Part shown: positions 14,869 to 35,675 of the stretch, piece by piece | How positions within the stretch are numbered: the first letter of the stretch is position 1 | Layout: each line of letters begins with the position of its first letter | Assembly (NCBI GenBank): GCA_963662155.1 | Contig: OY759271.1 | Coordinates: 38,993,581 to 39,057,580 of the forward strand | Direction of reading: 5' to 3' | From: Lamellibrachia columna | Taxonomy: Eukaryota; Annelida; Polychaeta; Sabellida; Siboglinidae | Length of the DNA: 64,000 bases | Notes under the pieces: model-generated | What the model was told of the DNA's origin: nothing | The model's input: only the letters and a program-made list of their open reading frames with translations | Databases searched by the model: none | Program-made: the position numbers and the translations under genes

Positions 14869-14879
14869 TTGTCTTTCAG

Positions 14880-15014
14880 CCTGATTCCAGACAAGAAGGC
14901 GGGGGAGATCAAACTGACCGTGTTCCATCGGAACCTGCTTGGCTTGGACCAGTTCCTGGGCTTTGTCTCCCTGCCCCTCAATGAGTTCCAGATCTACGAG
15001 CGCCCTCGCAGCAG
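14880..15014 (+). CDS. Rab11-FIP exon A: C2 domain, second half
   Basis: The acceptor is tgtctttcag and the donor is AGCAG|gtgggc. The first base completes a codon begun in an unseen upstream exon, and the exon ends in phase 2. The translation runs LIPDKKAGEIKLTVFHRNLL, then GLDQFLGFVSLPLNEF and QIYERPRSR. This matches the C2 domain of Rab11-FIP1/2/5, where a beta-strand with L-V-H-R is followed by D-FLG-V-IPL and then the W-L-SKP stretch encoded by the next exon. This C2 domain targets the protein to membranes rich in acidic lipids. GC content and codon use are clearly higher than in the flanking AT-rich introns. Confidence 0.9.
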
Positions 15015-15425
15015 GTGGGCGTCTTCTGCTTTCATTCTCATTGTTGTGTACTAACAATGCTTTGGAGGTAAACAGTGTTTTACAATACACCATATTAAAG
15101 TTGTATTCATTGTAAAGATAAAATGTTAAGCCACAAATGTAATGAGTAATTTAAAAGCAGCTGGCAATAGTAGATTAAGAAACGTGGCTTTATGTAAAGA
15201 TGTGTTAGATATAATACATTTTTTGCATGTAATTATATGTATAATGTTAAGTATATTTTTATTTGCAACCATAGAGGTTGAATATTCCATGTAAGGATAT
15301 TTTTAAAACGTATATAAACCATTATATACAATATAAAAATAGATTATAAAATTGCATAAACATCACTGAAATTGTCCCTCATCAAGTCAGTTCTGCATGT
15401 TCACTTTGACATTGTCACTATGCAG
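15015..15425 (+). other. Intron 1 (of those visible)
   Basis: 411-bp AT-rich intron with donor gtgggc and acceptor ctatgcag. No repeat or internal gene is seen. Confidence 0.85.
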
Positions 15426-15628
15426 ATGGTACACACTACGAAACAAGCCTGACTCGAAAAAGGCTGCCAAGGAACGCGGTGAGATTGAGGCCAAGGTCAC
15501 CTTCATCGTTCAAAGCACACCAGCAGCATCATCGGCAACACTGTCAAAAACAAGTCTTTCCAGTAGCGCTCTGAGTCTGAGCATGCTCAAGAAACCGAAG
15601 TCGATAAAGTCGCTGGCACACTCCATGG
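15426..15628 (+). CDS. Rab11-FIP exon B: end of C2 and linker start
   Basis: The acceptor is cactatgcag and the donor is CATGG|gtgagt. The split Arg codon is completed and followed by WYTLRNKPDSKKAAKERGEI, then EAKVTFIVQ. This is the highly conserved close of the FIP C2 domain (W-L-SKPGKK-KERGEIEV-I-F). The remainder (TLSKTSLSSSALSLSMLKKP, then KSIKSLAHSM) starts the low-complexity Ser/Lys linker. The exon ends in phase 1, with a Gly codon split across the next intron. Confidence 0.92.
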
Positions 15629-15951
15629 GTGAGTGGGCGAGGACATTCCAAAATCTGCAAAATGTTTGGTTTGAAATCCATATTTTATACTTGAAATGCT
15701 GTGTAAATATGTATGCATTTCTCAGTTGTTCACCAGCCTGTGGTTTTCCTATGTCGATCAAGTATCTATTAGGATTCAAAGGTTTTTAGGTTTTGTCAGA
15801 AATCTCCCCAGCATCACAAGTATTGGCTCTTTGACCTCTATTAGTTTGTTATTAGATTTTATACTGTTTATTCCTGCAAGGAAAACAATAGGTGAAAAGG
15901 AATTGTGGAACTATTCAACACATTGCTTCATTGTACATGTTTGTTGGACAG

Positions 15952-16124
15952 GTGACAAACTGAAAGTGAAAGGGAATCTGCTGAAGTCGAGCAGTAAGAC
16001 GGACCTGTCTCGGAGTCGGGAGTCGCTCGCCAGCAACCAGAGTTCAAACATCAGTTCACTGACACAGTCGTCCACTGGGGGCCGAGCCAGTCCTAGCCAG
16101 GAGAAGACGCCACCCAACAAAACT
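15952..16124 (+). CDS. Rab11-FIP exon C: Ser-rich linker
   Basis: The acceptor is gttggacag and the donor is AAAACT|gtaaat. Two bases complete a Gly codon, then DKLKVKGNLLKSSSKTDLSR and SRESLASNQSSNISSLTQSS, ending PSQEKTPPNKT in phase 0. The basic, Ser-rich RSRESLAS stretch resembles phosphorylated linker sequence in class I FIPs. No fold is expected. The reading frame continues open into the intron to about 16241 but loses coding character after the donor. Confidence 0.88.
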
Positions 16125-16543
16125 GTAAATACTTTCACTCTTGCTCTGCCAGTTAACTCTTCTCAAATCTTTTTTGGGAAAATGAAACTTATTTTCAGTT
16201 TGGTCTTGGTTTTTGTGATTTCATTTCTTTTCAATTTGTAGTCATTTCTTTGGTTTTTGATGCAAAAATAACAAATAACATATTTATGCCATGTTGACAT
16301 TTTGTTTTGTGAAATTAAAGCATCTTGACAGATATTCAAAACTACTTTTGCATCCTGCAGGTGGTGATTTAGTAAATAAACTATTATTTACATGTTGAGT
16401 AAACATACCAATCATGTGATGGTGTGGTCTCTCCCAACAGTCGCAAGCCATTGTTGTGATAGCGTCATTACATTTCATGACTGCTGAGATAAGTGATTGC
16501 CATTGATGTGCAGCAAGGTCTCAGTTGTAGTGTTGTCTTCTAG

Positions 16544-16669
16544 CACCAAGGTCTGTCCGGTCTCCTACCCACGTACCCCACCTTTGTGGCCCCCAGCTCA
16601 GCCGACCACAGTCGCAAGTCGTCAGTGTCTAGTCGTGTGAGCAGCGATGCAGAGCCGGAACAAGTCAAC
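16544..16669 (+). CDS. Rab11-FIP exon D: linker
   Basis: The acceptor is tgtcttctag and the donor is GTCAAC|gtgggt, phase 0 at both ends (42 codons). The translation is HQGLSGLLPTYPTFVAPSSA, then DHSRKSSVSSRVSSDAEPEQ and VN. It is linker sequence with Ser clusters (RKSSVSS) that look like basophilic kinase sites. The donor choice is moderately certain; a weaker GT lies 6 bp upstream (CAA|gtcaac). The tandem repeat that follows shares the last exon bases and the donor region. Confidence 0.8.
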
Positions 16670-17365
16670 GTGGGTCATTCACATGACTCCTGAATGGGTC
16701 TTTCACATGACTTGCACTAGTGTCTCACATGAGTCTTTCACATGACTCCTGCACTAGTGTATCACATGGGTCATTCACATGACTCATGCACTAGTGTATC
16801 ACATGGGTCATTCACATGATTCCTGCACTAGTGTCTATACTGCTATGCTATTGTCTGGCATGTCTCACATGACTCATGCACTAGTATCTCCTAGGGTCAT
16901 TAACATGACTCCTGTACTAGTATCTCACATGAGGCATTCACATAACTCATGGACTAGTGTCTCTATTGTTATGTTAGTGTCTGACGTGTCTCACATGGGT
17001 CATTCACATGATTCATGCACTAGTATATCACATGACTACTGTATTACTGTTTCTCTTCTGTTAATGTTTGGCAAGTCACTGTGAGCCATTCGTATGACTC
17101 CTGCACTAGTGTTTCTACTGCTTCGTCTGGTGTGTCTCAATTGGGTCATTCGTATGACTCCTGCACTAGTGTTTCTACTGCTTCGTCTGGTGTGTCTCAA
17201 TTGGGTCATTGACATGACTCATTCATATGACTCCTGCACTAGTGTTTCTACTGCTTCGTCTGGTGTGTCTCAATTGGGTCATTGACATGACTCATTCGTA
17301 TGACTCCTGCACTAGTGTTTCTACTGCTTCGTCTGGTGTGTCTCAATTGGGTCATTGACATGACT
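16664..17365. repeat. Degenerate repeats starting at a splice donor
   Basis: Irregular copies of gggtcattcacatgactcct with gcactagtgt, later fused with a 55-70 bp unit containing ctactgcttcgtctggtgtg. The first copy begins at the exon D donor: exon and intron read gtcaac|gtgggtcattc, and later copies read tcacatgggtcattc, so the donor GT has become AT in most of them. Confidence 0.85.
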
Positions 17366-18767
17366 CTCGAAGTAATGTCTGAAATGTTCCATGGTACTAA
17401 TCTGCCAGTGTTCCAGGCTGCTCGAACACTTTACTTTACTCAGGAACATCATATCCAGTGGAACACAATGTTCCACTCGAATGTGCTGTGTTCCCACATG
17501 ATGACTGGCTGAACATTCCAATGATGAAAACATGTTTTTCTTCAGGAATGTTTACCTTCACTTGCATGCTACAGTCACTTGTCTACTCTAAAGTCACTGG
17601 TCCACTGTACAGCCACTGGTCCACTCTACAGCCACTGGTCCACTCTACAGCCACTGGTCCACTCTATGGCCACTGGTCCACTCTATGGCCACTGGTCCAC
17701 TATATGTCCACTGGTCCATTCTACAGTCACTGATCCACTCTACAGTCACTCGTCCACTCTACAGCCACTCGTCCACTCTACAGCCACTGGTCCACTGTAC
17801 AGCCACTGGTCCACTGTACAGCCACTGGTCCACTCTACAGCCACTGGTCCACTCTATGGCCACTGGTCCACTATATGTCCACTGGTCCATTCTACAGTCA
17901 CTGATCCACTCTACAGCCACTGGTCCACTCTACAGCCACTCGTCCACTCTACAGCCACTGGTCCACTCTACAGCCACTGGTCCACTCTACAGCCACTGGT
18001 CCACTCTACAGTCACTCGTCCACTCTATAGCCACTGATCCACTCTACAGCCACTGGTCCACTCTACAGCCACTCGTCCACTCTACAGCCACTCGTCCACT
18101 CTACAGCCACTGGTCCAATCTACAGCCACTGGTCCACTCTACAGTCACTGGTCCACTCTACAGTCACTGGTCCACTCTACAGTCACTGATTCACTCTACG
18201 GCCTTAATGATTGTCCGCACTCTTTCCCCGCTATGATCTGCTGTCATAAATCTACAAGTAGACACTCCTAAGAGTCGTTGTTGCCTAAGTTTAAAGTCAT
18301 TTGTTGTTGTTCACTCATTCATTGACTAATGTTGTGTTTTTAAAAGAACGGTAGATTTAAGTACTATATTTCTATGCAGTAAACCTTGAATGTTAACATT
18401 CTGATTTAATATGCAGTTTAGATGCGTAACTGGGGCACTGACAACATTAATTCAGGTGTTCTTGTTCTCTGTTTGAAAGACTACAATACAAGTCTTGAAC
18501 TACATTCCTGGCCACCACCGTCACTGACAGTTCTCTTGTGTTCTTTATACTTTGATTCAGAATGCAGGAGCAGTATTTGAAACAAAAATGAGAATTTTTT
18601 TTTATTCAACATTGAACTACAGTGAATGTTTTGCTTTAATGACCTTTGCATATCTCAGCATTATGTGTCATTCCAAATTAACAAGAACACTTGTGTAGAT
18701 GTAGTACAGTTGCCTTTGTTGTGTTTGATAAACATCTCACAGTATGATTTTCTTTTTCCCCCTGTAG
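16670..18767 (+). other. Intron 4 with two minisatellites
   Basis: 2.1-kb intron. The first 700 bp are irregular repeats related to the donor region; 17575-18200 is a 19-bp array; 18200-18767 is unique AT-rich sequence ending in a strong pyrimidine tract and cctgtag. No gene is seen inside it. Confidence 0.8.
17575..18200. repeat. 19-bp minisatellite, about 33 copies
   Basis: The unit is tacagccactggtccactc, with variants tatggcc, gtcactc and gtcactgatcc. Each copy contains pyrimidine-rich ccactctacag, which resembles a weak 3' splice site. Two overlapping long open frames through it are repeat artefacts. Confidence 0.95.
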
Positions 18768-19154
18768 AGGCCCCGTATCTCTGGTCGGCAGTCTCGTTCA
18801 CTGCGCCCCTCCTCAATTGCTATGGCAACCACAGCCAACCCCTTTACCTCTACCCCATCCAAACCCAGTCCCTTTACCCATTCCAAACCCAGCCCTTTTT
18901 CTTCCACCCCATCCAAACCCTGTCCCTTCCATCAGCTGTCAGCCCTACCTGATTATCTCAACCCGTTTGACGAGCCAGCAAAACCCCCTCATGAATCAAC
19001 AAAAGACAATACTTTCTCCCCCTCTTCCCCCTCCAATTCCTTCAACCTGTTCCTTGAGTCCAGCCCTCTCCGTGTCCCTCAGTTCGGCAGCTGCAGCAGC
19101 ACCAGCGACGATGTTAACATGTCAGTCGAAATGACCGATCTGACAGAGAATGAG
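18768..19154 (+). CDS. Rab11-FIP exon E: NPF-motif linker
   Basis: The acceptor is tttttccccctgtag and the donor is AATGAG|gtagac, 129 codons, phase 0 at both ends. It opens RPRISGRQSRSLRPSS and contains two NPF motifs (18837-18845 in TANPFTS and 18960-18968 in YLNPFDE). These flank a small coding repeat with KPSPF twice and KPCPF once. NPF motifs bind EH domains of EHD1 and Reps1 in vertebrate FIP2, so this exon probably links the protein to endocytic-recycling machinery. The C-terminal half is acidic and Ser-rich (SVEMTDLTENE). If the intron is retained, the frame adds only VDL and stops at 19164-19166. Confidence 0.9.
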
Positions 19155-19159
19155 GTAGA

Positions 19160-20870
19160 CCTCTAAATGTGTTCCTGCATGACATAGTCATATGTATCTC
19201 CATCGTTGAGCTACCTCCCTCTCCCGCATGACATAGTCATATGTATCCCCATCGTTGAGCTACCTCCCTCTCCCGCATGACATAATCATATGTATCCCCA
19301 TCGTTGAGCTACCTCCCTCTCCTGCATGACATCATCATATGTATCTCCATCATTGAGCTACCTCCCTCTCCCGCATGACATAGTCATATGTATCTCCATC
19401 ATTGAGCTACCTCCCTCTTCCGCATGACATAATCATATGTATCTCCATCATTGAGCTACCTCCCTCTCCCGCATGACATAGTCATATGTATCCCCATCAT
19501 TGAGCTACCTCCCTCTCCCGCATGACATAGTCATATGTATCCCCATCATTGAGCTACCTCCCTCTCCCGCATGACATAGTCATATGTATCCCCATCATTG
19601 AGCTACCTCCCTCTCCCGCATGACATAGTCATATGTATCTCCATCATTGAGCTACCTCCCTCTCCTGCATGACATAGTCATATGTATCCCCATCATTGAG
19701 CTACCTCCCTCTCCCACATGACATAGTCATATGTATCTCCATCATTGAGCTACCTCCCTCTCCCACATGACATAGTCATATGTATCTCCATCATTGAGCT
19801 ACCTCCCTCTTCCGCATGACATAATCATATGTATCTCCATCATTGAGCTACCTCCCTCTCCCGCATGACATAGTCATATGTATCCCCATCATTGAGCTAC
19901 CTCCCTCTCCCGCATGACATAGTCATATGTATTCCCATCATTGAGCTACCTCCCTCTCCCGCATGACATAGTCATATGTATTCCCATCATTGAGCTACCT
20001 CCCTCTCCCGCATGACATAGTCATATGTATTCCCATCATTGAGCTACCTCCCTCTCCCGCATGACATAGTCATATGTATCCCCATCATTGAGCTACCTCC
20101 CTCTCCCGCATGACATAGTCATATGTATCCCCATCATTGAGCTATCTCCCTCTCCCGCATGACATAGTCATATGTATCCCCATCATTGAGCTACCTCCCT
20201 CTCCCGCATGACATAGTCATATGTATCCCCATCATTGAGCTACCTCCCTCTCCCGCATGACATAATCATATGTATCTCCATCATTGAGCTACCTCCCTCT
20301 CCCGCATGACATAGTCATATGTATCCCCATCATTGAGCTACCTCCCTCTCCCGCATGACATAATCATATGTATCTCCATCATTGAGCTACCTCCCTCTCC
20401 CGCATGACATAGTCATATGTATCCCCATCATTGAGCTACCTCCCTCTCCCGCATGACATAGTCATATGTATTCCCATCATTGAGCTACCTCCCTCTCCCG
20501 CATGACATAGTCATATGTATTCCCATCATTGAGCTACCTCCCTCTCCCGCATGACATAGTCATATGTATCCCGATCATTGAGCTACCTCCCTCTCCCGCA
20601 TGACATAGTCATATGTATCCCCATCATTGAGCTACCTCCCTCTCCCGCATGACATAGTCATATGTATCTCCATCATTGAGCTACCTCCCTCTCCCGCATG
20701 ACATAATCATATGTATCTCCATCATTGAGCTACCTCCCTCTCCCGCATGACATAGTCATATGTATCCCCATCATTGAGCTACCTCCCTCTCCCGCATGAC
20801 ATAATCATATGTATCTCCATCATTGAGCTACCTCCCTCTTCCGCATGACATAGTCACATGTATCCCTGTT
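19160..20870. repeat. 49-bp minisatellite at a splice donor, about 34 copies
   Basis: The unit contains catgacatagtcatatgtat, then ccccatcattgagctacctc and cctctcccg. The first, divergent copy starts at the exon E donor: exon and intron read aatgag|gtagacctc, and the array reads attgagctacctccctc at the same place. The array therefore looks copied from the exon-intron junction, with the GT changed to CT in all later copies. Confidence 0.93.
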
Positions 20871-20979
20871 ACTCTACAAGGCTACCTCCCTCCTTCCCCA
20901 CACAATGAATGTATTCCCACTACAAGGCCACCCAGCGTCATGTACTAAATACACATACTGTCCAGTGCTTTGCTTTGCA

Positions 20980-21155
20980 TGATGCATACATGATGTGCAC
21001 GTAGTACACACTGTAGGATCATACATGATGTGCATGTAGTACACACTGTAGGATCATACATGATGTGCATGTAGTACACACTGTAGGATCATACGTGATG
21101 TGCACGTACTACACGCTGTAGGATCATACATGATGAGCACATACTACACACTAGG
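20980..21155. repeat. 35-bp repeat, about 5 copies
   Basis: The unit contains gatcatacatgatgtgcatg and tagtacacactgtag, with a few substitutions in the later copies. Confidence 0.85.
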
Positions 21156-21400
21156 ATTAAATTATTGTGATATTATGAAAGGTTAATTAGTGGATAATAA
21201 ATAAGTTGAATCAGTCTGTTTAGTACATCAGATATGTATATATTGAATTATTAATTTCACTGCTTACTGTATGTTCTCTAACTCACATAGACACTAAATG
21301 TAGGAATAACAACTCTATTAGCCTACTCTGTGGATAACTGTTACCAACTTTATTATTGGAATGACTGCAGCACTTGGTGATTCACACGTATTTGTATTGT

Positions 21401-21577
21401 TCTGTCAGCACTAAGTCAGCACACTTGTCTGCGAAACCTAACAATCTGTCAGCACTAAGTCAGCACACTTGTCTGCGAAACCTAACAATCTGTCAGCACT
21501 AAGTCAGCACACGTGTCTGTGGACCCTAACATTCTGTCAGCACTAAGTCAGCACACGTGTCTGTGGACCCTAACATT
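21401..21577. repeat. 44-bp repeat, 4 copies
   Basis: Units start at 21401, 21445, 21489 and 21533 with tctgtcagcactaagtcagc. The first two and last two copies form pairs (cttgtctgcgaaac versus cgtgtctgtggacc). Confidence 0.92.
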
Positions 21578-23212
21578 TTGTTCACTGCTTGCCTCTTTCA
21601 CTGACAAAATGTTGTTCCTAGGCAACCATGTGGCTGTTTACAACTCTACACATCTTTTCTCTGATGTGAGGAATGGGCAAAACCGGTGGCTTTGACAATC
21701 AAATTTCATTAAACATATTTTAGATTGCAAAAATGTTACTGAAGTTTTATATCCATATTCCATTTTATTCTCTTTGGCTTGTTATTGCTGAATATTAAAA
21801 TTATTTTTTAAGTTTCTAATTTCATTTATGTATTCACCGGGCTTCATAAATTCAATTGTTACTGTGAATTTGAATATTATTCTTACACTGGGCCCTATCA
21901 AATGACACATTCCATAGATGCACATCTCTGCTTCCTGTTTGCTCTAACATGTTTGTGCAGAGCCCATCGTGCAGTATACAGAAAAACACGTTTTATGATA
22001 AGACATAGCTGTATATAATTTGTAGGCATTGAACTAACCGGAATGTTCATAGAAATCAAAATTGTGTCTGTAATGATTAAACACAAGTGTTTTATTAATT
22101 TATGACATGCTACGAGCATACATGCATGACGTGTGATTTCACAATATCCTAATTGTATTGCTGCATGTGGATCATGTGCAGTGTGAAAGCTGCCTGCCAT
22201 AGACCACTCTTGTTTAGCCAGTTTCTCTCAAAGTCTACTTCTCTTAACATATGTGCCTGTTAGCAACTCATATGATTCTTAACTGACCGAACATCTCTTT
22301 CTGGTTGCGTCACTTTCGAACTACAAGCAAAGCACATTCATAAGGTTAACATACAAGGTTAAATCAGAAGATTTAATTCACAAATCCTAATAAAAAATTG
22401 CTTGGCAGCTTTCACAAAAATATTCTTTTTCACATTTGTGTTAAAGTTTTTTCATTTAACTTTTCCCAATCAAGCTCTCAAATCCACAATTGGCAAACAG
22501 TTTAAGCAATTTATTTCTAAGATGTTTTCTCTGGCAAAGCCAGTTGTGAGTTTCCTTTTCTCATAAAGAGTTAAGGCTGTCTTGTTTTTCAATTAACCAG
22601 TTGTGCCAAATTGCACATGGCCAGACTGGGTGAAAGAATGTGCATGTCTTGAGAGCTTGATCATTAGTTTTATTTCATTATGACGTATTCAACACCTGCC
22701 TTTAAATGAATCTTAAAATTATTAGAAACCCAATTTTTTATCAATACAAATTCTAAAATATCCATTTTATGATGTACATTTCGTAACTGGTATCTAAAGA
22801 CCAGTTTACCTGAATGATCTGTGCCCTTGTAAGACGGGCGACACAGTGTCATATGACAGTGCACAGCTAAATTATATGTGCGATTAGACAAACAATGTGT
22901 CTCGATTAATTATTGACTAGCACCACTCCCAGCTTGAGCTTTGATGAAAGGTCACAATGAGTGCACCTGCTGTCAGTCGCAGCTTCAAAATTGTCGCTGT
23001 CTGTCAAATTTGATCCAGCCCAAATTCCATAGCCACAAAATGGCCTCATTTATTAGTCTCCTGATGGTGTGTACAAAAAAATTCTTGTGCCGAGATACTG
23101 CGTGACACTATTGGCTGACCAGTTGGGCAAATAATCGGTTGTGAATGTTAAAGTGTGTTTAATGCAGGTGTTGGGAACGCCCCGTGTCACTAATACCTGT
23201 TTACCCTCGCAG

Positions 23213-23311
23213 TCCCTGCCACCCACTCCGGTGCGGCCGCCCCGGTACACACGCCCCGCACGCATCAGTCGCTTGTCTCACTCACGGTCCACACTCTCGC
23301 TACCACTTCGT
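23213..23311 (+). CDS. Rab11-FIP exon F: Pro/Arg-rich linker
   Basis: The acceptor is taccctcgcag and the donor is CTTCGT|gtaggt, 33 codons, phase 0 at both ends. The translation is SLPPTPVRPPRYTRPARISR, then LSHSRSTLSLPLR. It is basic and Pro-rich; PPTPVRPPR could bind an SH3 or 14-3-3 type partner, which is inference. GC is much higher than in the flanks. As a phase 0-0 cassette it could be skipped without changing frame. Confidence 0.8.
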
Positions 23312-23416
23312 GTAGGTTTCCATGGCAATGCTTATAGCAGCATCTTAGTTTCCATGGCAATGCTTATAGCAGCATCTTAGTTTCCATGGCAATGCTTATA
23401 GCAGCATCTTAGTTTC
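23312..23416. repeat. 32-bp repeat at a splice donor, 3 copies
   Basis: The unit contains tttccatggcaatgcttata and gcagcatcttag. The first copy directly continues the donor of exon F (gtaggtttccatgg), while later copies read cttagtttccatgg. The repeat therefore starts at the exon-intron junction. Confidence 0.9.
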
Positions 23417-24997
23417 CTCTAATTGTGATCTCGCCCTAAATGAGTGTGCTACATTCTACCTGGTTTTATTAAAAATATTATTTTTTATTTAAGAATATTT
23501 TTTAATATTTAAAATTATTAAAAATGTTATTTAAAACATTTGTTAACAATTACAAAAGTGCATTTTCTTTTGCTTTTCTGATTTGGAAGCATTGTTTACA
23601 GGAAGATGATAATTTGCACACATTTCTATTGATGACAATATGAGTAAAAGTACACTCATTTAATAGTAGTCCCTTACGTGGTAGTGTAGTTGTAGGGTAG
23701 GGTGCACAGTACCTGCTTACTAAAGGCACTCTTGGCTAAACATTGCATGGGAACTGGTAAGAAATGAGATATCAAAGTTACTGTTGATCAGATGTAATAC
23801 AAACTCACACAGACAATTTGCCAGAGTAATACATGCTACCATAGAAAGTGCTAAAATATTGTTGAACTTTAAAAAGATTCATGTTAGAACTTGAGCGATA
23901 ACAACATTACTGTGTGCACATGGAGAATATATTAAACGCAGACACAATAACATAATTTACAATTCATCATAAAATTTGTAGTGATAATTACACGCTGCTT
24001 TGTTGTTTACTTCTGTTTTAGTTGTTGCTAACATTTAATGTTTCGATATTTTTATCTGATATATAAATTACATCGTTTTTCTTTATCATCCATTTTAAAG
24101 CAAAACAAAAGTCATGGTTTTGTGGCAATACACCTAGAAGAGATAAAAGCTAACCATGTGCAACTAAAATCATGAATATCACGCCAGTGATTTATTCAGA
24201 ATGTGTTCTAGAAGTGGAAGATTGCAGTCATTTCTCCAGTTGACCGAGGGCTGACATGTTAATCAGCGCAACCAATAAGTGCTTGTGCAGTTCTATGGAA
24301 ATCGTGTAATGTAGGGTACGTGTGACATATTAAGTGAGGCTGACATACACAGAACCAATACAAAGTCTCAAACAAATGGGCAATTTCCTCAGAAAGAAGA
24401 CTAGTTTAGTAAACAAAGGCCAAATATGTTACATAAGTTGAGTTTAGATGTAAACAGCCTGACCATATCGTATTGGCAGATGTAGGAACAGGTGTATACA
24501 AATATATTTTAATTTCACGAAAAAATGTTGCTAAACTTTGACACTTGTAACATAGGGTTACAGTATGGCGTGGCCCAGGAAATTAAAATGCTTCAATAAG
24601 GTTTTCCTAGTAAACCATTATCATGATATTCTTAATTGTAGTTGCAAATGGTGATGTTTTACTAAATGTTTAGGTGCATAGGCCCAAAACCATGACTTGC
24701 TTCCTTTTAATAATGCTCTAATTTTAACATTGTTAGTTTATGTTCTTTTTATTTTATTTTGAATAGTTTCATCTATTTTGTCTTTATTGACTAGTTATAA
24801 TTATACGCGTTTCTTTATCTAGTATTTTATTTTACTCATAGACATTTGTTTTATGCCTGTCTTACAATTTTATAATTAATTAACTATGTTGAGTGCTATA
24901 TTATATTGTTAGTATTAAATGTTGTTATTGCTTGCCTGCATGTCACCCCTCTATTCACCCCTTTATTCACCCCTCTATTGTTTCGTTTCGTTATTAG
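23312..24997 (+). other. Intron 6
   Basis: 1.7-kb intron, AT-rich. It begins with three copies of a 32-bp repeat. Three copies of a 15-bp unit (ttcacccctctattg) lie just before the acceptor (tcgttattag). About 1.5 kb between them shows no gene. Confidence 0.75.
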
Positions 24998-26175: not shown

Positions 26176-26232
26176 TAGATGGTAGATACATTAGATGTTT
26201 GCTGCAACTTACCTGTTCGTCCTCCCAACCAG

Positions 26233-26742: not shown

Positions 26743-26790
26743 GAGATAGATTTAGGGGAATCAGCGATGGATGACTCAGACAATGACGAG
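26743..26790 (+). CDS. Rab11-FIP exon I: short acidic exon
   Basis: The acceptor is attcttcttgaag and the donor is GACGAG|gtaact, 16 codons, phase 0 at both ends. The translation is EIDLGESAMDDSDNDE. The acidic sequence resembles casein-kinase-2-type stretches in scaffold linkers. It is the least certain exon because it is short and its acceptor is only fair. Skipping it would keep the frame. Confidence 0.6.
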
Positions 26791-26884
26791 GTAACTGATT
26801 TGTCTCCTCCTGGTGGGTGCACGAGACACTAGTCTGGTGGCGGCACAGCTCATGTGATTACCAGGATGCACATTGATAATGCAC

Positions 26885-27225
26885 CGCTCTTGGACTAACA
26901 CACCTGTAGTTACCTGGATGTCCATGATAACACACCAGTCTTTCACTAACACACTTCTACTTACCTGGATGCACATGATAACACACCACTTTTTCACTAA
27001 CATGTACTTACCTGGATGCACATGATAACACACCACTCTTTCATTGACACACCTGTACTTACCTGGATGCACATGATAACACACCAGTATTTCATTAACA
27101 CATACAGTGTATGTACTTACCTGGATAACACACCACTCTTTGACTGACACACATGTACTTACCTGGATGCACATTGATAATACACCACTTTTCACTTGCA
27201 CACCTGTGTTTACCTGAAGCTACTT
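26885..27225. repeat. About 51-bp repeat with U1-like motif, 6-7 copies
   Basis: Units of 42-53 bp contain tacttacctggatgcacatg and ataacacaccactctttcac. The 11-mer tacttacctgg is perfect at 26958, 27005, 27056, 27114 and 27156. It equals nucleotides 2-12 of the U1 snRNA 5' end and is the reverse complement of a consensus donor (CCAG|GTAAGTA). Confidence 0.88.
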
Positions 27226-27482
27226 GCGCGTAGGTGACTTCCAATAGTCTGGTTGCATGGTGAGATGTGACGTATTCACACATAACTGTTGATAGCTGTC
27301 TTCTACCATTCTCTGTCTCTCAACTCTGAAGTCTTCTCTTTCTTAAAATGTTGGCAATTCAGCTCTGTAGTTTCTCTGCTACCACTAATTTAATGTATAG
27401 TATAACTATACTATGGAAGGGTCATGATAACAGATATAACGACCACCATTTTTAATACATAAAATCTAATGTATTTTTACAA

Positions 27483-28575
27483 AGGTGTACTCCCCCTCCC
27501 AGTCCCTACTTGTTCTCCTGGTGTACTCCCCCTCCCAGTCCCTACTTGTTCTCCTGGTGTACTCCCCTCCCAGTCACTACTTGTTATCCTGGTGTACTCC
27601 CCCTCCCAGTCCCTACTTGTTCTCCTGGTGTACTCCCCCTCCCAGTCACTACTTGTTATCCTGGTGTACTCCCCCCTCCCAGTTACTACTTATTCTCCTG
27701 GTGTGCTCCCCTCTCCCAGTCCCAATTTGTTCTCCTGGTGTACTCCCCTCTCCCAGTCCCTATTTGTTCTCCTGGTGTGCTCCCCCCTCCCAGTAAGTAC
27801 TTGTTCTCCTGGTGTACTCCCCTCTCCCAGTCCCTATTTGTTCTCCTGTTGTACTCGCCCTCCCAGTCACTACTTGTTCTCCTAGTGTGCTCCTCCCTCC
27901 CAGTCCCTACTTGTTCTCCTGGTGTACTCCCCCTCCCAGTCACTACTTGTTATCCTGGTGTACTCCCCCTCCCAGTCCCTACTTGTTCTCCTGGTGTACT
28001 CCCCCTCCCAGTCACTACTTGTTATCCTGGTGTACTCCCCCTCCCAGTCCCTACTTGTTCTCCTGGTGTACTCCCCCTCCCAGTCACTACTTGTTATCCT
28101 GGTGTACTCCCCCCTCCCAGTCACTACTTGTTCTCCTGGTGTGCTCCCCTCTCCCAGTCCCTATTTGTTCTCCTGGTGTACTCCCCTCTCCCAGTCCCTA
28201 TTTGTTCTCCTGGTGTGCTCCCCCCTCCCAGTAAGTACTTGTTCTCTTGGTGTACTCCCCTCTCCCAGTCCCTATTTGTTCTCCTGTTGTACTCGCCCTC
28301 CCAGTCACTACTTGTTCTCCTAGTGTGCTCCTCCCTCCCAGTCACTACTTGTTCTCCTAGTGTGCTCCTCCTCCCAGTCCCTACTTTTTCTCCTAGTGTG
28401 CTCCTCCCTCCCAGTCCCTACTTGTTCTCCTGGTGTGCTCCCCCTCTCAGTCCCTACTTGTTCTCCTTGTGTGCTCCCCTCCCAGTCCGTACTTTTTCTC
28501 CTAGTGTGCTCCCCCCTCCCAGTCCCTACTTGTTCTCCTAGTGTGCTCCCCCTCCCAGTCCCTACTTGTTCACCT
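27483..28575. repeat. 36-bp pyrimidine-rich minisatellite, about 30 copies
   Basis: The unit contains gtgtactccccctcccagtc and cctacttgttctcctg. Each copy has a pyrimidine tract ending in CAG, like a 3' splice site, and a later CTG|gtgta. Length variants in the C run shift frames. Long Pro/Ser/Leu-rich open frames on both strands are artefacts. Confidence 0.95.
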
Positions 28576-28834
28576 TAGTGATCTGCACTAATGACGTGAT
28601 TGTATGTTCTTCCTTGTAGTAGCCTTTATAAAGGGTGAGGCCGAGTAGAGTGCTGCTGCACTGCTTTGGTTGTCGTCATTTGTCAGTGTTCCCTATGTCC
28701 CTATGGACAGCCTTTTCCCTCCACAGTTACTTCAAATGTACCATAGGTATTTCTGATGCCACAGTTCATATGGCAATACATCTATGCATATTCCAAACTC
28801 TTATCTATTTTCATGCACTTTGAAAACTGCTTAT

Positions 28835-29370
28835 AGCACTCAAAGCCACATGCACATCTGTAATAGGGTGTGTGCCGAGTCCACATGCACAGCTCTAATA
28901 GGGTGTGTGCCGAGTACATGTGCACAGCTCTAATAGGGTGTGTGCTGCGTCCATGTGCACAGCTGTAATAGGGTGTGTGCCGAGTCCATGTGCACAGCTC
29001 TAATAGGGAGTGTGCCGAGTCCACATGCACAGCTCTAATAGGGTGTGTGCCGAGTACATGTGCACAGCTCTAATAGGGTGTGTGCTGCATCCATGTGCAC
29101 AGCTCTAATAGGGTGTGTGCCGAGTCCACATGCACAGCTCTAATAGGGTGTGTGCCGAGTACATGTGCACAGCTCTAATAGGGTGTGTGCTGCGTCCATG
29201 TGCACAGCTGTAATAGGATGTGTGCCGAGTCCATGTGCACAGCTCTAATAGGGAGTGTGCCGAGTCCACATGCACAGCTCTAATAGGGTGAATGCCGAGT
29301 CCACATGCACAACTTTAATAGGGTGTGTGCGGAGTCCACATGCACAGTTCTAATAGGGTGTGTGCCGAAT
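28835..29370. repeat. 35-bp minisatellite with higher-order order, about 15 copies
   Basis: The unit contains agctctaatagggtgtgtgc and cgagtccatgtgcac. Variants follow a repeated order (cgagtccacatg, cgagtacatg, tgcgtccatg, sometimes cgagtccatg), so blocks of three or four units were copied together. Confidence 0.92.
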
Positions 29371-29371
29371 C

Positions 29372-29905
29372 CACTGCTCTAGTGACACGCACCCTGTCTA
29401 ATAACCTATGTCCACTGTATAGCCTGCCCGCATGTAGTGACACTGCTCTAGTGACAGGCGCCCTGTCTAATAACCTATATCCACTGTATAGCCTGCCCGC
29501 ATGTAGTGACACTGCTCTAGTGACAGGCGCCCTGTCTAATAACCTATATCCACTGTATAGCCTGCCCGCATGTAGTGACACTGCTCTAGTGACAGGCGCC
29601 CTGTCTAATAACCTATATGCACTGTATATCCTGCCCGCATGTAGTGACACGCACCCTGTCTAATAACCTATATCCACTGTATAGCCTGCCCGCATGTAGT
29701 GACACTGCTCTATTGACAGGCACCCTGTCTAATAACCTATATCCACTGTATATCCTGCCCACATGTAGTGACACGCACCCTGTCTAATAACCTATGTCCA
29801 CTGTATAACCTGCCCGCATGTAGTGACACTGCTCTATTGACAGGCACCCTGTCTAATAACCTATATCCACTGTATATCCTGCCCGCATGTAGGGACATTG
29901 CTCTG
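29372..29905. repeat. 69-bp minisatellite, about 8 copies
   Basis: The unit contains ctgctctagtgacaggcgcc, ctgtctaataacctatatcc and actgtatagcctgcccgcat. Some copies lack the first about 20 bp. Copies at 29442 and 29511 are 69 bp apart. Confidence 0.92.
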
Positions 29906-30530
29906 CTCTGACTTTCCAACACAGTTGTTCAATTATAACAAAGTATTTCAGTAACAAGAGTAAGTGTTGTGCCTGACTCTGTATGTTTGAGTTCATCGTT
30001 GCTGGGATGTTTATGTATCATGTCTAGTCACAACGTATACACTGACCTGTATTTACATTGTAATGGTAAACACTTTGTAATGGTAAACATATTGTGATGG
30101 TAAACACATTGTACTGTATGCAACGTTTATTAATTTTCTGGAATTTATTCAGATTTATTCCTACCAATCAAATAAGTTGCCCCAGAAGTCTATAAGACCC
30201 ACATAATATCATTATCTATGTCTGCTGGCCTGTTCGAAATGAGCTTGCTGTACAAAATGTGATATATTGATTGAATCTCATGAGACTTTGGCACAATTAA
30301 AATATTCACAAGAGTCACTCTTTGGACATGTTTTGAACTGACGTATCGTGTAGAGGATGGGTTATGGGCAGGCAACTGGACATGTGGGGCATATCCAGTA
30401 ATACAAAAAGCCTTGTTCAAAATGCCCAAAACTGGAAGAAATGCCTCCTGTAAGATTGTCACATTTCAGAAACTATGTTATAGGTAAACTGTAAGTGTTG
30501 ACTTGTTACTTTATTCTCTGTTGTCCACAG

Positions 30531-30597
30531 CGTAGTCTCTATGGTCGCGGCCGCTTCAGCACGCAGTCACATGACTTTGTCAGAAAACCATCTGCAG
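30531..30597 (+). CDS. Rab11-FIP exon J: linker
   Basis: The acceptor is ctgttgtccacag and the donor is CTGCAG|gtgtgt. It starts in phase 0 and ends in phase 1 (67 nt). The translation is RSLYGRGRFSTQSHDFVRKP, then SA, with a split Gly codon. It is a basic linker with no recognised domain. It must splice to the exon at 32365 to keep frame, and that exon's acceptor is the last of 18 tandem near-copies. Confidence 0.8.
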
Positions 30598-30905
30598 GTG
30601 TGTATAAAACTGTATATACCTGTCAGAATTAGTCATAGACTGGTGCTTTACATTTTGGTTTTATCTTAAACTTTACAGTTTAGTAAAGTTACATTTATTG
30701 ACTTGTTATCACAGTGGCAGTTACAGGAATATAGATGCCAATGCCAGGAATAGTAAGAGATTTTCTTGTTGCTATAAATGAATATCTCACAGGTATTACC
30801 TGTTTACATCACTTATCAACACTACATTACTGAGTGTTGATATCCCCTGAGCATTAGAAATACAGTCAGCTCTGACTCTGGGAATGAGATTTGTAGATGT
30901 TCTTG
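30598..30905 (+). other. Start of intron 10, unique part
   Basis: About 300 bp of AT-rich intron between the donor and the 82-bp array. No gene or repeat is seen. Confidence 0.6.
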
Positions 30906-32400
30906 GGTGTCACAATTCAGGAGAAACACCAGCAGGTGTATTAATTAATAATTATGTCACCTTTCCACAGGGGAGCCAGTCAGCTCACTCAACATTCTTC
31001 TGGAGAAACACCAACAAGTGTATTAATTAATAATTATGTCACCTTTCCACAGGGGAGCCAGTCAGCTCACTTAACATTCTTCTGGAAAAACACCAACAAG
31101 TGTATTAATTAATTTTTATGTCACCTTTCCACGGGGGACCCAGTCAGCTCACTCAGCATTCTTCCAGAGAAACATCAACAAGTGTATTAATTAATAATTA
31201 TGTCACCTTTCCACATGGGAGCCAGTCAGCTCACTCAACATTCTTCTGGAGAAACACCAACAAGTGTATTAATTAATAATTATGTCACCTTTCCACAGGG
31301 GAGCCAGTCAGCTCACTCAACATTCTTCCAGAGAAACATCAACAAGTGTATTAATTAATAATTATGTCACCTTTCCACAGGGGAGCCAGTCAGCTCACTC
31401 AGCATTCTTCCAGAGAAACACCAACAAGTGTATAAATTAATAATTATGTCACCTTTCCACAGGGAAGCCAGTCAGCTCACTCAGCATTCTTCCAGAGAAA
31501 CATCAACAAGTGTATTAATTAATAATTATGTCACCTTTCCACAGGGGAGCCAGTCAGCTCACTCAACATTCTTCTGGAGAAACACCAACAAGTGTATTAA
31601 TTAATAATTATGTCACCTTTCCACAGGGGAGCCAGTCAGCTCACTCAACATTCTTCCAGAGAAACATCAACAAGTGTATTAATTAATAATTATGTCACCT
31701 TTCCACAGGGAAGCCAGTCAGCTCACTCAACATTCTTCCAGAGAAACATCAACAAGTGTATTAATTAATAATTATGTCACCTTTCCACAGGGGAGCCAGT
31801 CAGCTCACTCAGCATTCTTCCAGAGAAACACCAACAAGTGTATAAATTAATAATTATGTCACCTTTCCACAGGGGAGCCAGTCAGCTCACTCAACATTCT
31901 TCCAGAGAAACACCAACAAGTGTATAAATTAATAATTATGTCACCTTTCCACAGGGGAGCCAGTCAGCTCACTCAGCATTCTTCTGGAGAAACACCAACA
32001 AGTGTATTAATTAATAATTATGTCACCTTTCCACAGGGGAGCCAGTCAGCTCACTCAGCATTCTTCCAGAGAAACACCAACAAGTGTATAAATTAATAAT
32101 TATGTCACCTTTCCACAGGGGAGCCAGTCAGCTCACTCAGCATTCTTCTGGAGAAACACCAACAAGTGTATTAATTAATAATTATGTCACCTTTCCACAG
32201 GGGACCCAGTCAGCTCACTCAACATTCTTCCGGAGAAACACCAACAGGTGTATTAATTAATAATTATGTCACATTTTCACAGAGGAGCCAGTCAGCTCAC
32301 TCAGCATTCTTCCAGAGAAACACCAACAGGTGTATTAATTAATAATTATGTCACATTTCCACAGGGGAGCCAGTCAGCTCGCTTAACATTCTTCCAGAGG
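30906..32400. repeat. 82-bp acceptor-containing minisatellite, 18 copies
   Basis: The unit contains ttaattaataattatgtcac, ctttccacag, then gggagccagtcagctcactc and aacattcttctggagaaaca. The last copy is the real acceptor and first about 40 bp of the exon at 32365. Acceptor AGs fall at 30970 plus multiples of 82; 17 x 82 reaches 32364 exactly. Two copies have lost AG (about 31134 and 31216); 16 keep it. Variants cttctgg/cttccag and caaca/cagca occur in mixed order. Confidence 0.97.
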
Positions 32401-32655
32401 AACAGTCGGAGACCATGTTGCCATCTGGTGAGGTTTGGAGCAATACCATCGAGCAGCAGAACGCAGCTAACAAAGCGAACTCCTCGGTTAGGAGCTCCAC
32501 GAGCAGGAAGTCTGATGTCATCTCAGAAGTCTGCTCAGAGACGGACGGTATTGACGTTCCTGTGTTGGTTCGCAGCAGCAGTCGTCCAACGTCAACAATC
32601 ATCGAAGGTCCCATCGACTTCCGACGCCTCAGCATAGGTTCCAAGGGTGATAAGG
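32365..32655 (+). CDS. Rab11-FIP exon K: linker
   Basis: The acceptor is tcacatttccacag and the donor is GATAAGG|gtgagt. It enters in phase 1 (two bases finish a Gly codon) and leaves in phase 1. The translation is EPVSSLNILPEEQSETMLPS, then GEVWSNTIEQQNAANKANSS, and ends in EGPIDFRRLSIGSKGDK. It is acidic then Ser-rich, as in class I FIP linkers. In every upstream repeat copy the same frame reads EPVSSLNIL, then (L/P)EKHQQVY and a stop, so only this last acceptor gives full-length protein. Confidence 0.87.
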
Positions 32656-32691
32656 GTGAGTTGTAGGTAATTACGATGTAGTGTTTGTAAT

Positions 32692-33478
32692 AATGTCTGG
32701 CAGTCTTAATGTATGCTGAGATTGTACACTAAAGTCTGGCAGTCTTAATGTATGCTGAGATTGTACACTAAAGTCTGGCAGTCTTAATGTATGCTGAGAT
32801 TGTACACTAAAGTCTAGCAGTCTTAATGTATGCTGAGATTGTACACTAAAGTCTGGCAGTCGTGATGTATGCTGAGATTGTACACTAAAGTCTGGCAGTC
32901 TTAATGTATGCTGAGATTGTACACTAAAGTCTGGCAGTCGTGATGTATGCTGAGATTGTACACTAAAGTCTGGTAGTCTTAATGTATGCTGAAATTGTAC
33001 ACTAAAGTCTGGCAGTCTTAATGTATGCTGAGATTGTACACTAAAGTCTGGCAGTCTTAATGTATGCTGAGATTGTACACTAAAGTCTAGCAGTCTTAAT
33101 GTATGCTGAGATTGTACACTAAAGTCTGGCAGTCGTGATGTATGCTGAGATTGTACACTAAAGTCTGGTAGTCTTAATGTATGCTGAGATTGTACACTAA
33201 AGTCTGGCAGTCTTAATGTATGCTGAGATTGTACACTAAATTCTGGCAGTCGTGATGTATGCTGAGATTGTACACTAAAGTCTGGTAGTCTTAATGTATG
33301 CTGAGATTGTACACTAAAGTCTGGCAGTCTTAATGTATGCTGATATTGTACACTAAAGTCTGGCAGTCTTAATGTATGCTGAGATTGTACACTAAAGTCT
33401 GGTAGTCTTAATGTATGCTGAGATTGTACACTAAAATCTGGTAGTCTTAATGTATGCTGAGATTGTACACTAAAATCC
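32692..33478. repeat. 39-bp minisatellite, about 20 copies
   Basis: The unit contains gtctggcagtcttaatgtat and gctgagattgtacactaaa. It is very homogeneous; variants are ctagcag, cgtgatg and tggtagtc. The 13-residue repeats on the minus strand are artefacts, because 39 is divisible by three. Confidence 0.96.
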
Positions 33479-33499
33479 AAGATGCAACATTCCTATCTA

Positions 33500-33715
33500 A
33501 ACAAACACTCATGCACATATACGTACACACACTCACTGTGCGCACACACACGCACGCACATATGTACACACACTCATGTGCACACACACACACACACACG
33601 CACACTCACCAAACTCACACACGCATGCACATATACCTACCCACACTCATGTGCAGTGCACATGAGTGGGGGTAGGTATATGCACATTGTGCACACATAC
33701 ACACACCACAATCAT

Positions 33716-33748
<33 letters not shown>

Positions 33749-33860
33749 CACGTACACATGCACGTACACACACACGCACATATACGTACACACATACACA
33801 CACCACACTCATGCACACACACACGCATGCACGTACACACACACACACACACACACACGC
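33500..33860. repeat. CA-rich microsatellite with internal hairpin
   Basis: Mixed CACA, CGCACA and TACACAC motifs with long (CA)n at about 33715-33745 and 33836-33858. A near-perfect inverted repeat with 31-bp arms lies at 33625-33655 and 33657-33687. Confidence 0.92.
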
Positions 33861-33885
33861 TGTAATATTGACTCCTCCACTGCAG

Positions 33886-34046
33886 ATGAACGAAGAAGCT
33901 CGCTGCGTTACGGGGTGAAGGAGATTGTGAACTCGGCTGATGCTGACCTCTACGAGACGGGCGACTACAAGCCGTCAGCAGCCGATGACCAGCGGTCATT
34001 TTTACCAGCTGAGATTCTTGACCAGTACAAGACAATGACCAGAGAG
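33886..34046 (+). CDS. Rab11-FIP exon L: pre-RBD region
   Basis: The acceptor is cctccactgcag and the donor is AGAGAG|gtgaga. It enters in phase 1 and ends in phase 0. The translation is D, then [40 protein letters not shown] and [13 protein letters not shown]. The last part ([10 protein letters not shown]) is the start of the amphipathic helix that precedes the Rab-binding domain in class I FIPs, where a similar Y-x-x-L-T/S-R motif occurs. It joins directly to DLIRMAY of the last exon. Confidence 0.9.
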
Positions 34047-34480
34047 GTGAGACCACCGACATTGTTACTATTCGTAAAACATCCATATAAATTACAAAGT
34101 TTGCTAGTTTTTATTGTAAAATCGTGTTACGTATTATAACCTATTATAATCTATATCTGTTCCAGCACCTTCACTGCCCAAATATGTCTTAATGAACCAC
34201 GTTAAAAAATATGTTTTGACTATCAACTGTTTAATTCTATATTGTTTACATTGCATTGGAAGGGACATCATTTTACGAGTGTTAATGATACGCCCATCGT
34301 GTGATCACAGTAAACTAATAAAATAGTTGACATTCATAAACAGATAAAGATAATGGTCACATTGTGTTAAAATGTGGTTCATTAAAATGCATTTCGATGG
34401 TTGAAATGTTAGAATAGACACATGACACAACATGATTTTACGATAAAAATTATCAGAGTTTTTAGTTTGAGATAAAGCGC

Positions 34481-35136
34481 TAGAGTATGAGTGGTGTGTA
34501 ACAGTCAGATACTACGCATTATATGGACGGGTGAGTATGAGTGGTGTGTAACAGTCAGATACTACGCATTATATGGACGGGTGAGTATGAGTGGTGTGTA
34601 ACAGTCAGATACTACGCATTATATGGACGGGTGAGTATGAGTGGTGTGTAACAGTCAGATACTACGCATTATATGGACGGGTGAGTATGAGTGGTGTGTA
34701 ACAGTCAGATACTACGCATTATATGGACGGGTGAGTATGAGTGGTGTGTAACAGTCAGATACTACGCATTATATGGACGGGTGAGTATGAGTGGTGTGTA
34801 ACAGTCAGATACTACGCATTATATGGACGGGTGAGTATGAGTGGTGTGTAACAGTCAGATACTATGCATTATATGGACGGGTGAGTATGAGTGGTGTGTA
34901 ACAGTCAGATACTACGCATTATATGGACGGGTGAGTATGAGTGGTGTGTAACAGTCAGATACTACGCATTATATGGACGGGTGAGTATGAGTGGTGTGTA
35001 ACAGTCAGATACTACGCATTATATGGACGGGTGAGTATGAGTGGTGTGTAACAGTCAGATACTACGCATTATATGGACGGGTGAGTATGAGTGGTGTGTA
35101 ACAGTCAGATACTACGCATTATATGGACGGGTGAGC
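34481..35136. repeat. 50-bp minisatellite, 13 near-identical copies
   Basis: The unit contains gtgagtatgagtggtgtgta, acagtcagatactacgcatt and atatggacgg. Only one internal substitution is seen (C to T at about 34865). Each junction reads GGACGG|GTGAGTATG, a strong 5' splice-site consensus, first at 34531 and last at 35131. Confidence 0.97.
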
Positions 35137-35179
35137 TTTGCACACTGTCATTGTTCAAAGGTCACTGTTTCAAGAGTTG

Positions 35180-35675
35180 CTCAGGATGCACTGTTTCATG
35201 ATTCAATTGCACTGTTTCATGATCTGGTTACATTATTTCATGATTCAGTTGCACTGTTTCATGATCTGGTTGCACCGTTTCAGGATCCAGTTGCTCTGTT
35301 TCATGATCTGGTTGCACTGTTTAATAATTCAGTTGCACTGTTTCATGATCCGGTTGCACTGTTTCATGATCTGATTGCACTGTTTCATGATCTGGTTGCA
35401 CTGTTTCATGATCTGGTTGCACTGTTTCATGATCTGATTGCACTGTTTCATGATAAAGTTGGACTGTTTCATGATCCGTTTGCCTTGTTTCATGATCCGG
35501 TTGCACTGTTTCATGATCTGGTTGCACTGTCTCTTGATCCGGTTACTCTGTTTCATGATCCAGGTACACTGTTTCATGATCTGGTTGCACTGTGTCATGA
35601 TCTGGTTGCCCTGTTTCATGATCCGGTTGCACTGATTTGGTCGCACTGTTTCATGATCCCGATGCACTGTTTCAG
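35180..35675. repeat. 21-bp minisatellite ending at a splice acceptor
   Basis: About 23 copies of gttgcactgtttcatgatct plus one base. The last copy becomes the real acceptor: gatgcactgtttcag|GACCTGATC aligns with tgcactgtttcatgatctg. AG is replaced by AT in nearly all other copies; one at about 35276 reads tttcag again. Long open frames here arise because 21 is divisible by three. Confidence 0.93.

Follow-up and report, generated by a model that had tools for sequence, protein, structure and literature searches.

Minisatellites of the mirage kind at splice junctions of a Rab11-FIP gene and two neighboring genes in Lamellibrachia columna, with a probable origin by near-random seeding

In a Rab11-FIP gene of Lamellibrachia columna, tandem arrays lie on donor as well as acceptor junctions, and some of their units carry the exon-intron boundary itself. 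The feature belongs to the kind described in amphioxus as "mirages", which is now seen in three neighboring genes: boundary-spanning units occur in Rab11-FIP (exons K, G, D, and M), GBE1, and a KIF21-like gene. In our judgment the arrays are probably mirage-type minisatellites that arose by near-random seeding without any boundary-aimed process, and it seems that seeding on splice borders needs no machinery directed at them. An initial annotation had instead proposed a mechanism that amplifies boundaries and had regarded the arrangement as possibly new. Its arrays on donors and acceptors, two with mostly intact copies, are retained in the present interpretation, but the mechanism and the novelty in kind are not. 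The analysis was based on a window of 64,000 nucleotides (contig OY759271.1).

The splice-joined translation of the gene provides a continuous reading frame of 765 amino acids, and the seven junctions named in the initial annotation are GT/AG boundaries placed exactly (7/7). The assignment as a Rab11-FIP gene was likewise correct, with the product matching the RBD-FIP domain (E 2.8e-7) and, in the PDB, Rab11-FIP2 (E 5e-10). Across all 12 introns in the window the frame is open and the phase is kept. Agreement of the peptide anchors over these introns tests the procedure itself, the anchors having been taken from the same annotation and hence being non-independent. Two further Rab11-FIP exons lie upstream of the window; these, and the junctions of the neighboring genes, were predicted from homology, phase, and splice scores. 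A protein search, in which 7999 candidates sharing the most words were scored, listed 17 matches, the best, to Capitella teleta, covering 17% of the query at 53% identity. Branchiostoma is absent from the names of these 17, one of which has no name. Scans of the whole window with Rfam (gathering threshold) and for tRNAs gave 0 matches. Coordinates are provided in Table 1.

Table 1. Rab11-FIP exons and the arrays at or near the seven named junctions (window positions)
Feature	Position	Strand	Description
Rab11-FIP gene	14880..36080	+	13 coding in-frame exons within the window
Exon A	14880-15014	+	
Exon B	15426-15628	+	
Exon C	15952-16124	+	
Exon D	16544-16669	+	
Exon E	18768-19154	+	
Exon F	23213-23311	+	
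Exon G	24998-25102	+	
Exon H	26233-26331	+	
Exon I	26743-26790	+	
Exon J	30531-30597	+	
Exon K	32365-32655	+	
Exon L	33886-34046	+	
Exon M	35676-36080	+	
Exon A acceptor array	14508..14871	+	26-bp unit, 14 copies, stops 8 bp before acceptor 14879
Exon D donor array	16668..16997	+	unit about 37 bp, 11 copies listed, begins on donor 16670
Exon E donor array	19173..20866	+	49-bp unit, 35 copies, begins +18 of donor 19155
Exon F donor array	23316..23417	+	32-bp unit, 3 copies, begins +4 of donor 23312
Exon G donor array	25098..26179	+	30-bp unit, 38 copies listed, spans donor 25103
Exon K acceptor array	30921..32404	+	82-bp unit, 18 copies, spans acceptor 32364
Exon M acceptor array	35187..35677	+	21-bp unit, 24 copies listed, runs onto acceptor 35675

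Short tandem repeats constitute about half of this gene neighborhood, and arrays about half of the intron DNA. Each of the seven named junctions has an array on it or nearby. Arrays had been claimed to begin or end on the junctions themselves, which is strictly so for the four that are touched or crossed (donors 16670 and 25103 along with acceptors 32364 and 35675); at the remaining three the array stops short by 4 bp (23312), 8 bp (14879), and 18 bp (19155). The 8-bp gap agrees with the earlier description of a 26-bp array stopping within 10 bp of its acceptor. Sequence sharing, also claimed, was judged from 60-bp junction alignments and extended array edges. It is complete for exon K, where the unit is formed by 42 bp of intron end and 40 bp of exon start, and for exon G, where the unit contains CACAA/GTATGTAG with 5 nt exonic. 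For exons D and M it is limited to the array edge, which reaches 2 nt into each exon, with similarity extending to 8 nt at exon M. The exon F and E donors are unshared: the exon F array lacks the donor GT, and the best junction alignment at exon E is wholly intronic. An additional donor in the upstream part of the gene, outside the set first noted, is followed by an array from +9. A diverged relative (P0011), whose exon E is 45% identical, probably carries a related array after the same exon.

GBE1, KIF21, and WD40 are presumed designations; the database matches read branching enzyme and kinesin-like protein. At the donor of GBE1 intron 12, the 19-bp unit of the array is the end of the exon itself. 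This exon is the likely source of the array because its end, QWLCSPP/AYVS, aligns without gaps to GWLAAPQ/AYVS in 4bzy, a branching enzyme of known structure. After the 4bzy alignment, the acceptor of the array-free GBE1 intron 10 was shifted by 18 nt, and the exon 8-9 join, which shows a one-residue gap relative to 4bzy and may be a codon off, was left as it stood. In the KIF21-like gene, the unit at the WD40 exon donor spans the boundary. Unit lengths of 21, 30, about 37, and 82 bp (Rab11-FIP) and of 19 bp (GBE1) are those of minisatellites. The exonic contribution to the unit is 40 nt for exon K, 5 nt for exon G, 19 nt for the GBE1 intron 12 donor, and 7 nt for the KIF21-like WD40 donor; it is marginal for exons D and M (2 nt each), and exons A, E, and F display none.

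The initial annotation held that this placement exceeds what chance would give. Under uniform in-intron placement, 4/24 Rab11-FIP junctions lie within 5 bp of an array versus 0.44 expected (p = 0.00025). As the sole null this was discarded as too lenient, since an array seeded on a junction can only look truncated there, and it was replaced by seeding on collapsed introns. When seeding may cross junctions, 4/24 are crossed versus 1.9 expected (p = 0.11), and the excess is weak against this null. Within 5 bp the corresponding values are 5/24 versus 2.1 (p = 0.044) with extended array edges and p = 0.14 without them, and within 20 bp they are 6/24 versus 2.7 (p = 0.035). Note that the gene was chosen for its junction-array pattern, and this selection bears on its excess. 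For repeat-rich stretches in general, array edges that look overrepresented at junctions have to be measured against a null in which seeding may cross the junction.

The count was extended to three genes on one chromosome, pooling 39 introns (78 junctions). The WD40 intron entered it through a homologous-exon search in an extension retrieved with that aim, the repeat being visible in the frame before annotation. Under the seeding null, 6/78 junctions are crossed versus 4.2 expected (p = 0.24), 10/78 lie within 10 bp of an array versus 5.2 (p = 0.027), and 13/78 within 20 bp versus 6.1 (p = 0.007). Eight of these 13 come from Rab11-FIP, including its two upstream introns, and the remaining 10-20 bp excess comes mostly from the chosen gene. 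A further 21 junctions, 19 of them single exon ends chosen by splice score only, were kept out of the 78; 1/21 is crossed. In GBE1 and the KIF21-like gene, which were not selected for the pattern, 2/50 junctions are crossed versus 2.0 expected, which is no excess; nor is there a clear excess within 10 bp (3/50 versus 2.4, p = 0.45) or 20 bp (5/50 versus 2.9, p = 0.16). Because these unselected neighbors match random seeding, a mechanism that amplifies boundaries is unsupported.

The distribution of arrays along the introns bears on the same question. Array coverage climbs from 5.5% at 1-5 bp from the intron edge to 54% at 641-1280 bp, and arrays contain 3/76 junction 24-mers and 22/40 points lying 800 bp deep (both counts from 38 introns, before the GBE1 intron 10 correction and with the KIF21-like WD40 intron left out). 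The strongest alternative is that junctions are preferred seeds, with R-loops, a paused polymerase, or RNA-templated repair raising the rate of duplication starts up to a few-fold. The pooled excesses within 10 and 20 bp, the Rab11-FIP value within 5 bp, and the array at the additional upstream donor all argue for it. We nevertheless consider it unlikely, given that strict crossings match chance, the neighbors are without clear excess, coverage is minimal at junctions, and array units are not enriched in splice motifs. Among 34 units at a shuffle p≤0.1, donor likeness was found in 2 sense and 1 antisense, and acceptor likeness in 2 sense and 3 antisense. The two highest donor scores belong to the array at 34483-35135, which has a donor-like GTGAGT on the sense strand in every copy, and to that at 26851-27216, which is donor-like on the antisense strand.

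The fate of the copied sites differs from array to array, as counted by reading the listed copies with the junction copy included. The GT is kept in 37/38 listed copies of the exon G array and CACAG in 16/18 copies of the exon K array, as expected from the earlier statement that many copies hold intact sites. That statement fails for exon M, where CAG is kept in 2/24 copies, and for exon D, where the junction copy alone of 11 listed retains GT. Of the 15 intact-looking upstream acceptors of exon K, 14 score at least as high as that of the gene model. The exon G array offers 31 downstream GT sites that equal or exceed the used donor in score, 19 of them in frame without a stop. Such arrays provide a natural test of how the spliceosome singles out one site when up to dozens of its copies are indistinguishable by splice score.

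A minisatellite with multiple splice donor sites was reportedly found in human IFI6 (6-16) by Turri et al. in 1995. By analogy, the arrays could be functional, their repeated sites serving as alternative splice sites that yield proteins of differing length. The open exon G donors are consistent with this, as are the commonest period of 30 bp and the intron phase of 0 in that array, and the probable persistence of the exon E array in the diverged relative. IFI6 takes downstream repeat units as donors (PMC4526556). Against a functional role, the translated join to an upstream exon K acceptor ends at a stop after 40 residues in all four copies listed of the 15. Decoys that match or surpass the used site in score number nine in GBE1 and three in the KIF21-like gene, none being both in frame and open, and nearly all copies of the exon D and M arrays have lost the site. 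By eye, the differences between exon G copies appear mostly amino-acid-changing. Taken together, these observations render a functional role quite improbable. The exon G array was also considered as coding sequence, its frame being open for ~20 copies, but inspection by eye gave no support. Finally, although long arrays pose difficulties for assembly and every gene model here is predicted, it is scarcely credible that the arrays or their placement are artefacts of assembly or annotation, for frame and phase hold over the 12 Rab11-FIP introns, GBE1 aligns to 4bzy over 647 query residues, array copies differ by distinct variants, and another sequence probably contains a counterpart of the exon E array.

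Near-random seeding is thus the explanation that we favor, and it builds on the observed positions, unit contents, copy fates, depletion toward junctions, and rough match to random seeding. Tandem arrays would readily begin almost anywhere in the introns of the three genes examined. A seed segment that by chance straddled a junction would carry along the exon end and the GT or AG, with duplication presumably proceeding by slippage or unequal exchange. The exon-proximal copy, presumably taken by the spliceosome, would remain under selection as a working splice site. The other copies would accumulate on the intron side, homogenize one another, and might retain or lose their splice dinucleotides. 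Selection probably holds most arrays off the junctions. A bolder extension, to which we assign only a small chance, is that in a lineage outside the cephalochordates mirages are a standing gene architecture. About 1 in 13 junctions of the three genes are crossed by an array and about 1 in 8 lie within 10 bp of one; on this view junctions would be seeded up to twofold more often than other points, and some arrays, such as that of exon G with some 19 in-frame donors that equal or exceed the used one in strength, would give a ladder of protein lengths.

The feature is not new in kind because mirages have been described in amphioxus and boundary repeats in human duplicated genes. Amphioxus mirages are tandem repeats that span exon-intron boundaries on both the 5' and 3' sides in Adh3 and the globins (PMC3087553), and PGBD5 carries them at donor and acceptor sites alike (PMC3902484), such that donor and acceptor arrays in a single gene have a precedent. 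As in Adh3, BflGb6, BflGb9, and PGBD5, a minisatellite-like unit here spans the boundary on donor and acceptor sides. The amphioxus copies keep AG/GT in many but not all cases, with boundary copies escaping the homogenization of inner copies (PMC3087553, PMC3902484); the exon G and K arrays behave similarly, whereas those of exons M and D keep few. Mirages are further characterized by splicing that RT-PCR shows to proceed normally, by copy numbers that differ among haplotypes or somatically, and by cephalochordate hosts; the sequence analyzed here represents one haplotype. In contrast to the 6 and 3 units of the two BflGb6 haplotypes (PMC3087553), four arrays touch junctions in one Rab11-FIP gene, with up to 38 copies. 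The present case also differs in species, in involving three neighboring genes, and in that prevalence was set against a null in the neighbors. In genes of human segmental duplications, minisatellites with a mean unit of 30 bp likewise lie at exon-intron boundaries and alter introns, with 27 intron modifications described (PMC2812944). Those arrays average ~4 repeats and involve recent paralogues, novel introns, and transcript support; ours are long, lie in single genes, and are known from sequence. The exon G array resembles that of IFI6 in being a tandem array at a donor, where the multi-copy use reported for IFI6 would be possible in principle. In the Rogers model, cited in the amphioxus work as a possible mirage route to introns, introns are gained by tandem duplication of segments bearing AG/GT (PMC3087553). 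A segment with a splice signal is duplicated here as well, but existing introns are lengthened without a new intron position.

The gene under study encodes a Rab11 family-interacting protein (FIP). Its 13 exons within the window, labeled A to M, form a single 765-residue frame with GT-AG dinucleotides at all 12 introns, and two additional exons lie upstream. The protein contains an RBD-FIP domain (E 2.8e-7), which matches that of Rab11-FIP2 in the PDB (E 5e-10), and it is also matched by a Capitella protein with both C2 and RBD-FIP domains. A Branchiostoma protein was absent from the 17 protein matches, which speaks against an amphioxus source but falls short of proof. The seven splice junctions located in the initial annotation proved exact to the nucleotide.

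Junctions, arrays and other features (window coordinates unless a contig, C11, or the upstream sequence, L005, is named)
Feature	Location	Description
Window	C11:38993581-39057580	Genome of 880 Mb, 30 contigs
A acceptor	14879	Array stops 8 bp away
D donor	16670	Array edge 2 nt inside exon
E donor	19155	Array starts 18 bp away
F donor	23312	Array starts 4 bp away
G donor	25103	30-bp unit, takes in last 5 nt of exon
K acceptor	32364	18 copies; 82-bp unit is final 42 bp of intron plus first 40 nt of exon
M acceptor	35675	Array edge 2 nt inside exon
67-bp array	4424-12750	124 copies, one FIP intron
56-bp array	L005 523-5498	89 copies, just upstream of first FIP exon found
35-bp array	L005 5507-7290	51 copies, just upstream of first FIP exon found
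50-bp array	34483-35135	13 near-identical copies, the units joined at a strong donor-like GG/GTGAGTATG; lies 436 bp into intron L-M, away from any junction
Intron I-J array	26851-27216	Strong antisense donor motif in unit, score 12.7; 0/200 shuffles as high
61-bp array	62728-63860	tRNA-like (SINE-like) on visual inspection; window lacks tRNA and Rfam matches
LINE-type reverse transcriptase fragment	53998-55268	Closest matches listed are ENA proteins (77-87% identity, 50-74% of query)
GBE1 intron 12	C11:38937881-38941339	Arrays at both ends, one on donor; the other, a 21-bp array, stops 4 bp short of acceptor

Six of these junctions had been described as lying on arrays that share their sequence. 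This is the case for K, G, D, and M, whereas the F and E arrays stand off from their donors; the array said to stop within 10 bp of the A acceptor does so. At an upstream FIP donor, outside the view of the initial annotation, an array begins 9 bp inside the intron. The claim that many copies carry intact sites applies to the G and K arrays, where the splice dinucleotide is kept in 37/38 and 16/18 copies, respectively (junction copy counted), but not to those of M (2/24) and D (1/11).

When arrays are placed uniformly inside introns, 4 of 24 FIP junctions lie within 5 bp of an array versus 0.44 expected (p=0.00025; score cut-off 80). Besides being post hoc, this test sets too low a bar, since its null forbids arrays seeded across a junction. 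Two neighboring genes on the same strand, GBE1 and a KIF21-like kinesin, selected independently of the pattern, were therefore annotated. The former can be aligned along 647 query residues with a branching enzyme of solved structure (E 1.9e-284), and the top solved match of the latter is a kinesin-like protein (E 1.3e-104). The procedure recovers 12/12 FIP introns, the anchors being our own FIP annotation. In the neighbors, 2/48 junctions fall within 5 bp versus 0.59 expected under uniform placement (p=0.11); the two belong to a single intron of GBE1.

A seeding null was also employed, in which each array is reduced to one unit and dropped at random, with crossing of junctions permitted and edges extended by alignment. 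The pooled set comprised 39 introns (78 junctions), including two upstream FIP introns.

Junctions crossed or approached by arrays, observed versus expected under the seeding null
Class	FIP	Neighbors	Pooled
Crossed	4/24 vs 1.9, p=0.11	2/50 vs 2.0, p=0.60	6/78 vs 4.2, p=0.24
<=5 bp	5/24 vs 2.1, p=0.044	3/50 vs 2.2, p=0.38	8/78 vs 4.7, p=0.096
<=10 bp	5/24 vs 2.3, p=0.073	3/50 vs 2.4, p=0.45	10/78 vs 5.2, p=0.027
<=20 bp	6/24 vs 2.7, p=0.035	5/50 vs 2.9, p=0.16	13/78 vs 6.1, p=0.007

With edges unextended, 6 junctions in 38 introns lie within 5 bp versus 4.5 expected (p=0.30). The near-junction excess is thus about twofold at most and arises mainly from FIP, the gene that was picked. The proposal that placement is more than random holds for FIP under the uniform null; under the seeding null the excess of crossed junctions is weak in FIP, and the pooled number fits chance. 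A count of boundary arrays against such a null was not found among the papers listed from a collection with few subscription journals.

Arrays are rarer at junctions than in intron interiors. Within 38 introns they cover 5.5% of the sequence at 1-5 bp, increasing with distance to 54% at 641-1280 bp, and 24-mers with at least two further copies are found at 3/76 positions when centered on the junction, 18/76 at 100 bp, and 22/40 at 800 bp. For 21 extra KIF21 junctions the corresponding values are 1/21, 4/21, and 10/21, with 2/21 at 200 bp. Tandem repeats of period 10 or more occupy ∼48% of the 294-kb stretch. Four single 10-kb samples from elsewhere contain 42% (around a FIP-domain match on contig C6), 5%, 24%, and 3% (the last including 2336 N), and thus the stretch may be much more repeat-rich than the genome at large.

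GBE1 intron 12 bears on the direction of copying. The final 19 nt of the preceding exon constitute one repeat copy, and a search of 960 bp there gave 31 matches to the pattern CC[CT]?GGTG. Since the alignment of this exon end with the solved enzyme runs through the splice free of gaps, the exon is probably the source of the array, with the exon-proximal copy probably serving as the boundary. In a WD40 exon of KIF21-like the donor is repeated, and by eye most copies read CAG/GTGGGT. In the likely mechanism, a seed straddling a junction would carry the splice site along as it is copied; the exon-proximal copy would remain under selection, and the others would drift and homogenize. Some array copies equal the modeled site in splice score. 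In the K array 14/15 upstream acceptors outscore the gene-model site. GT dinucleotides scoring at least as high as the gene-model donor number 31/123 in the G array (19 of the 31 in frame and open), 9/147 in that of GBE1, and 0/27 in the D array; 3/14 sites do so in KIF21-like.

An ENA predicted protein of 621 residues, P0011, contains a relative of exon E (52/116 aligned positions identical) followed by a repeat. Among 148 arrays of the region, this repeat best matches the E-donor array (103 bits; next 69), in a comparison of low-complexity repeats with filters off. The array therefore seems likely to predate the split of the two animals. P0011 itself is likely a gene-model error caused by a junction array, namely an apparent read-through of the donor into the minisatellite.

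The amphioxus Adh minisatellites mentioned in the initial annotation are described for Adh3, and also for globins, as "mirages"; they occur at both boundaries, with AG/GT in many copies, and vary unstably in length with regular splicing undisturbed (PMC3087553). Donor and acceptor arrays within one gene, suggested to be possibly new, have a precedent in a single amphioxus gene with repeats at its 5' and 3' splice sites, in a paper that also cites Adh and troponin C (PMC3902484). Other reports describe earthworm metallothionein genes with minisatellites inside an intron, apparently off the boundary (PMC12783039), and alternative splicing linked to intronic minisatellites in C. elegans (PMC4039745). 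Exon-intron boundary minisatellites with 27 intron modifications are reported for human genes in segmental duplications (PMC2812944), and minisatellite repeat units serve as donors in human IFI6 (PMC4526556).
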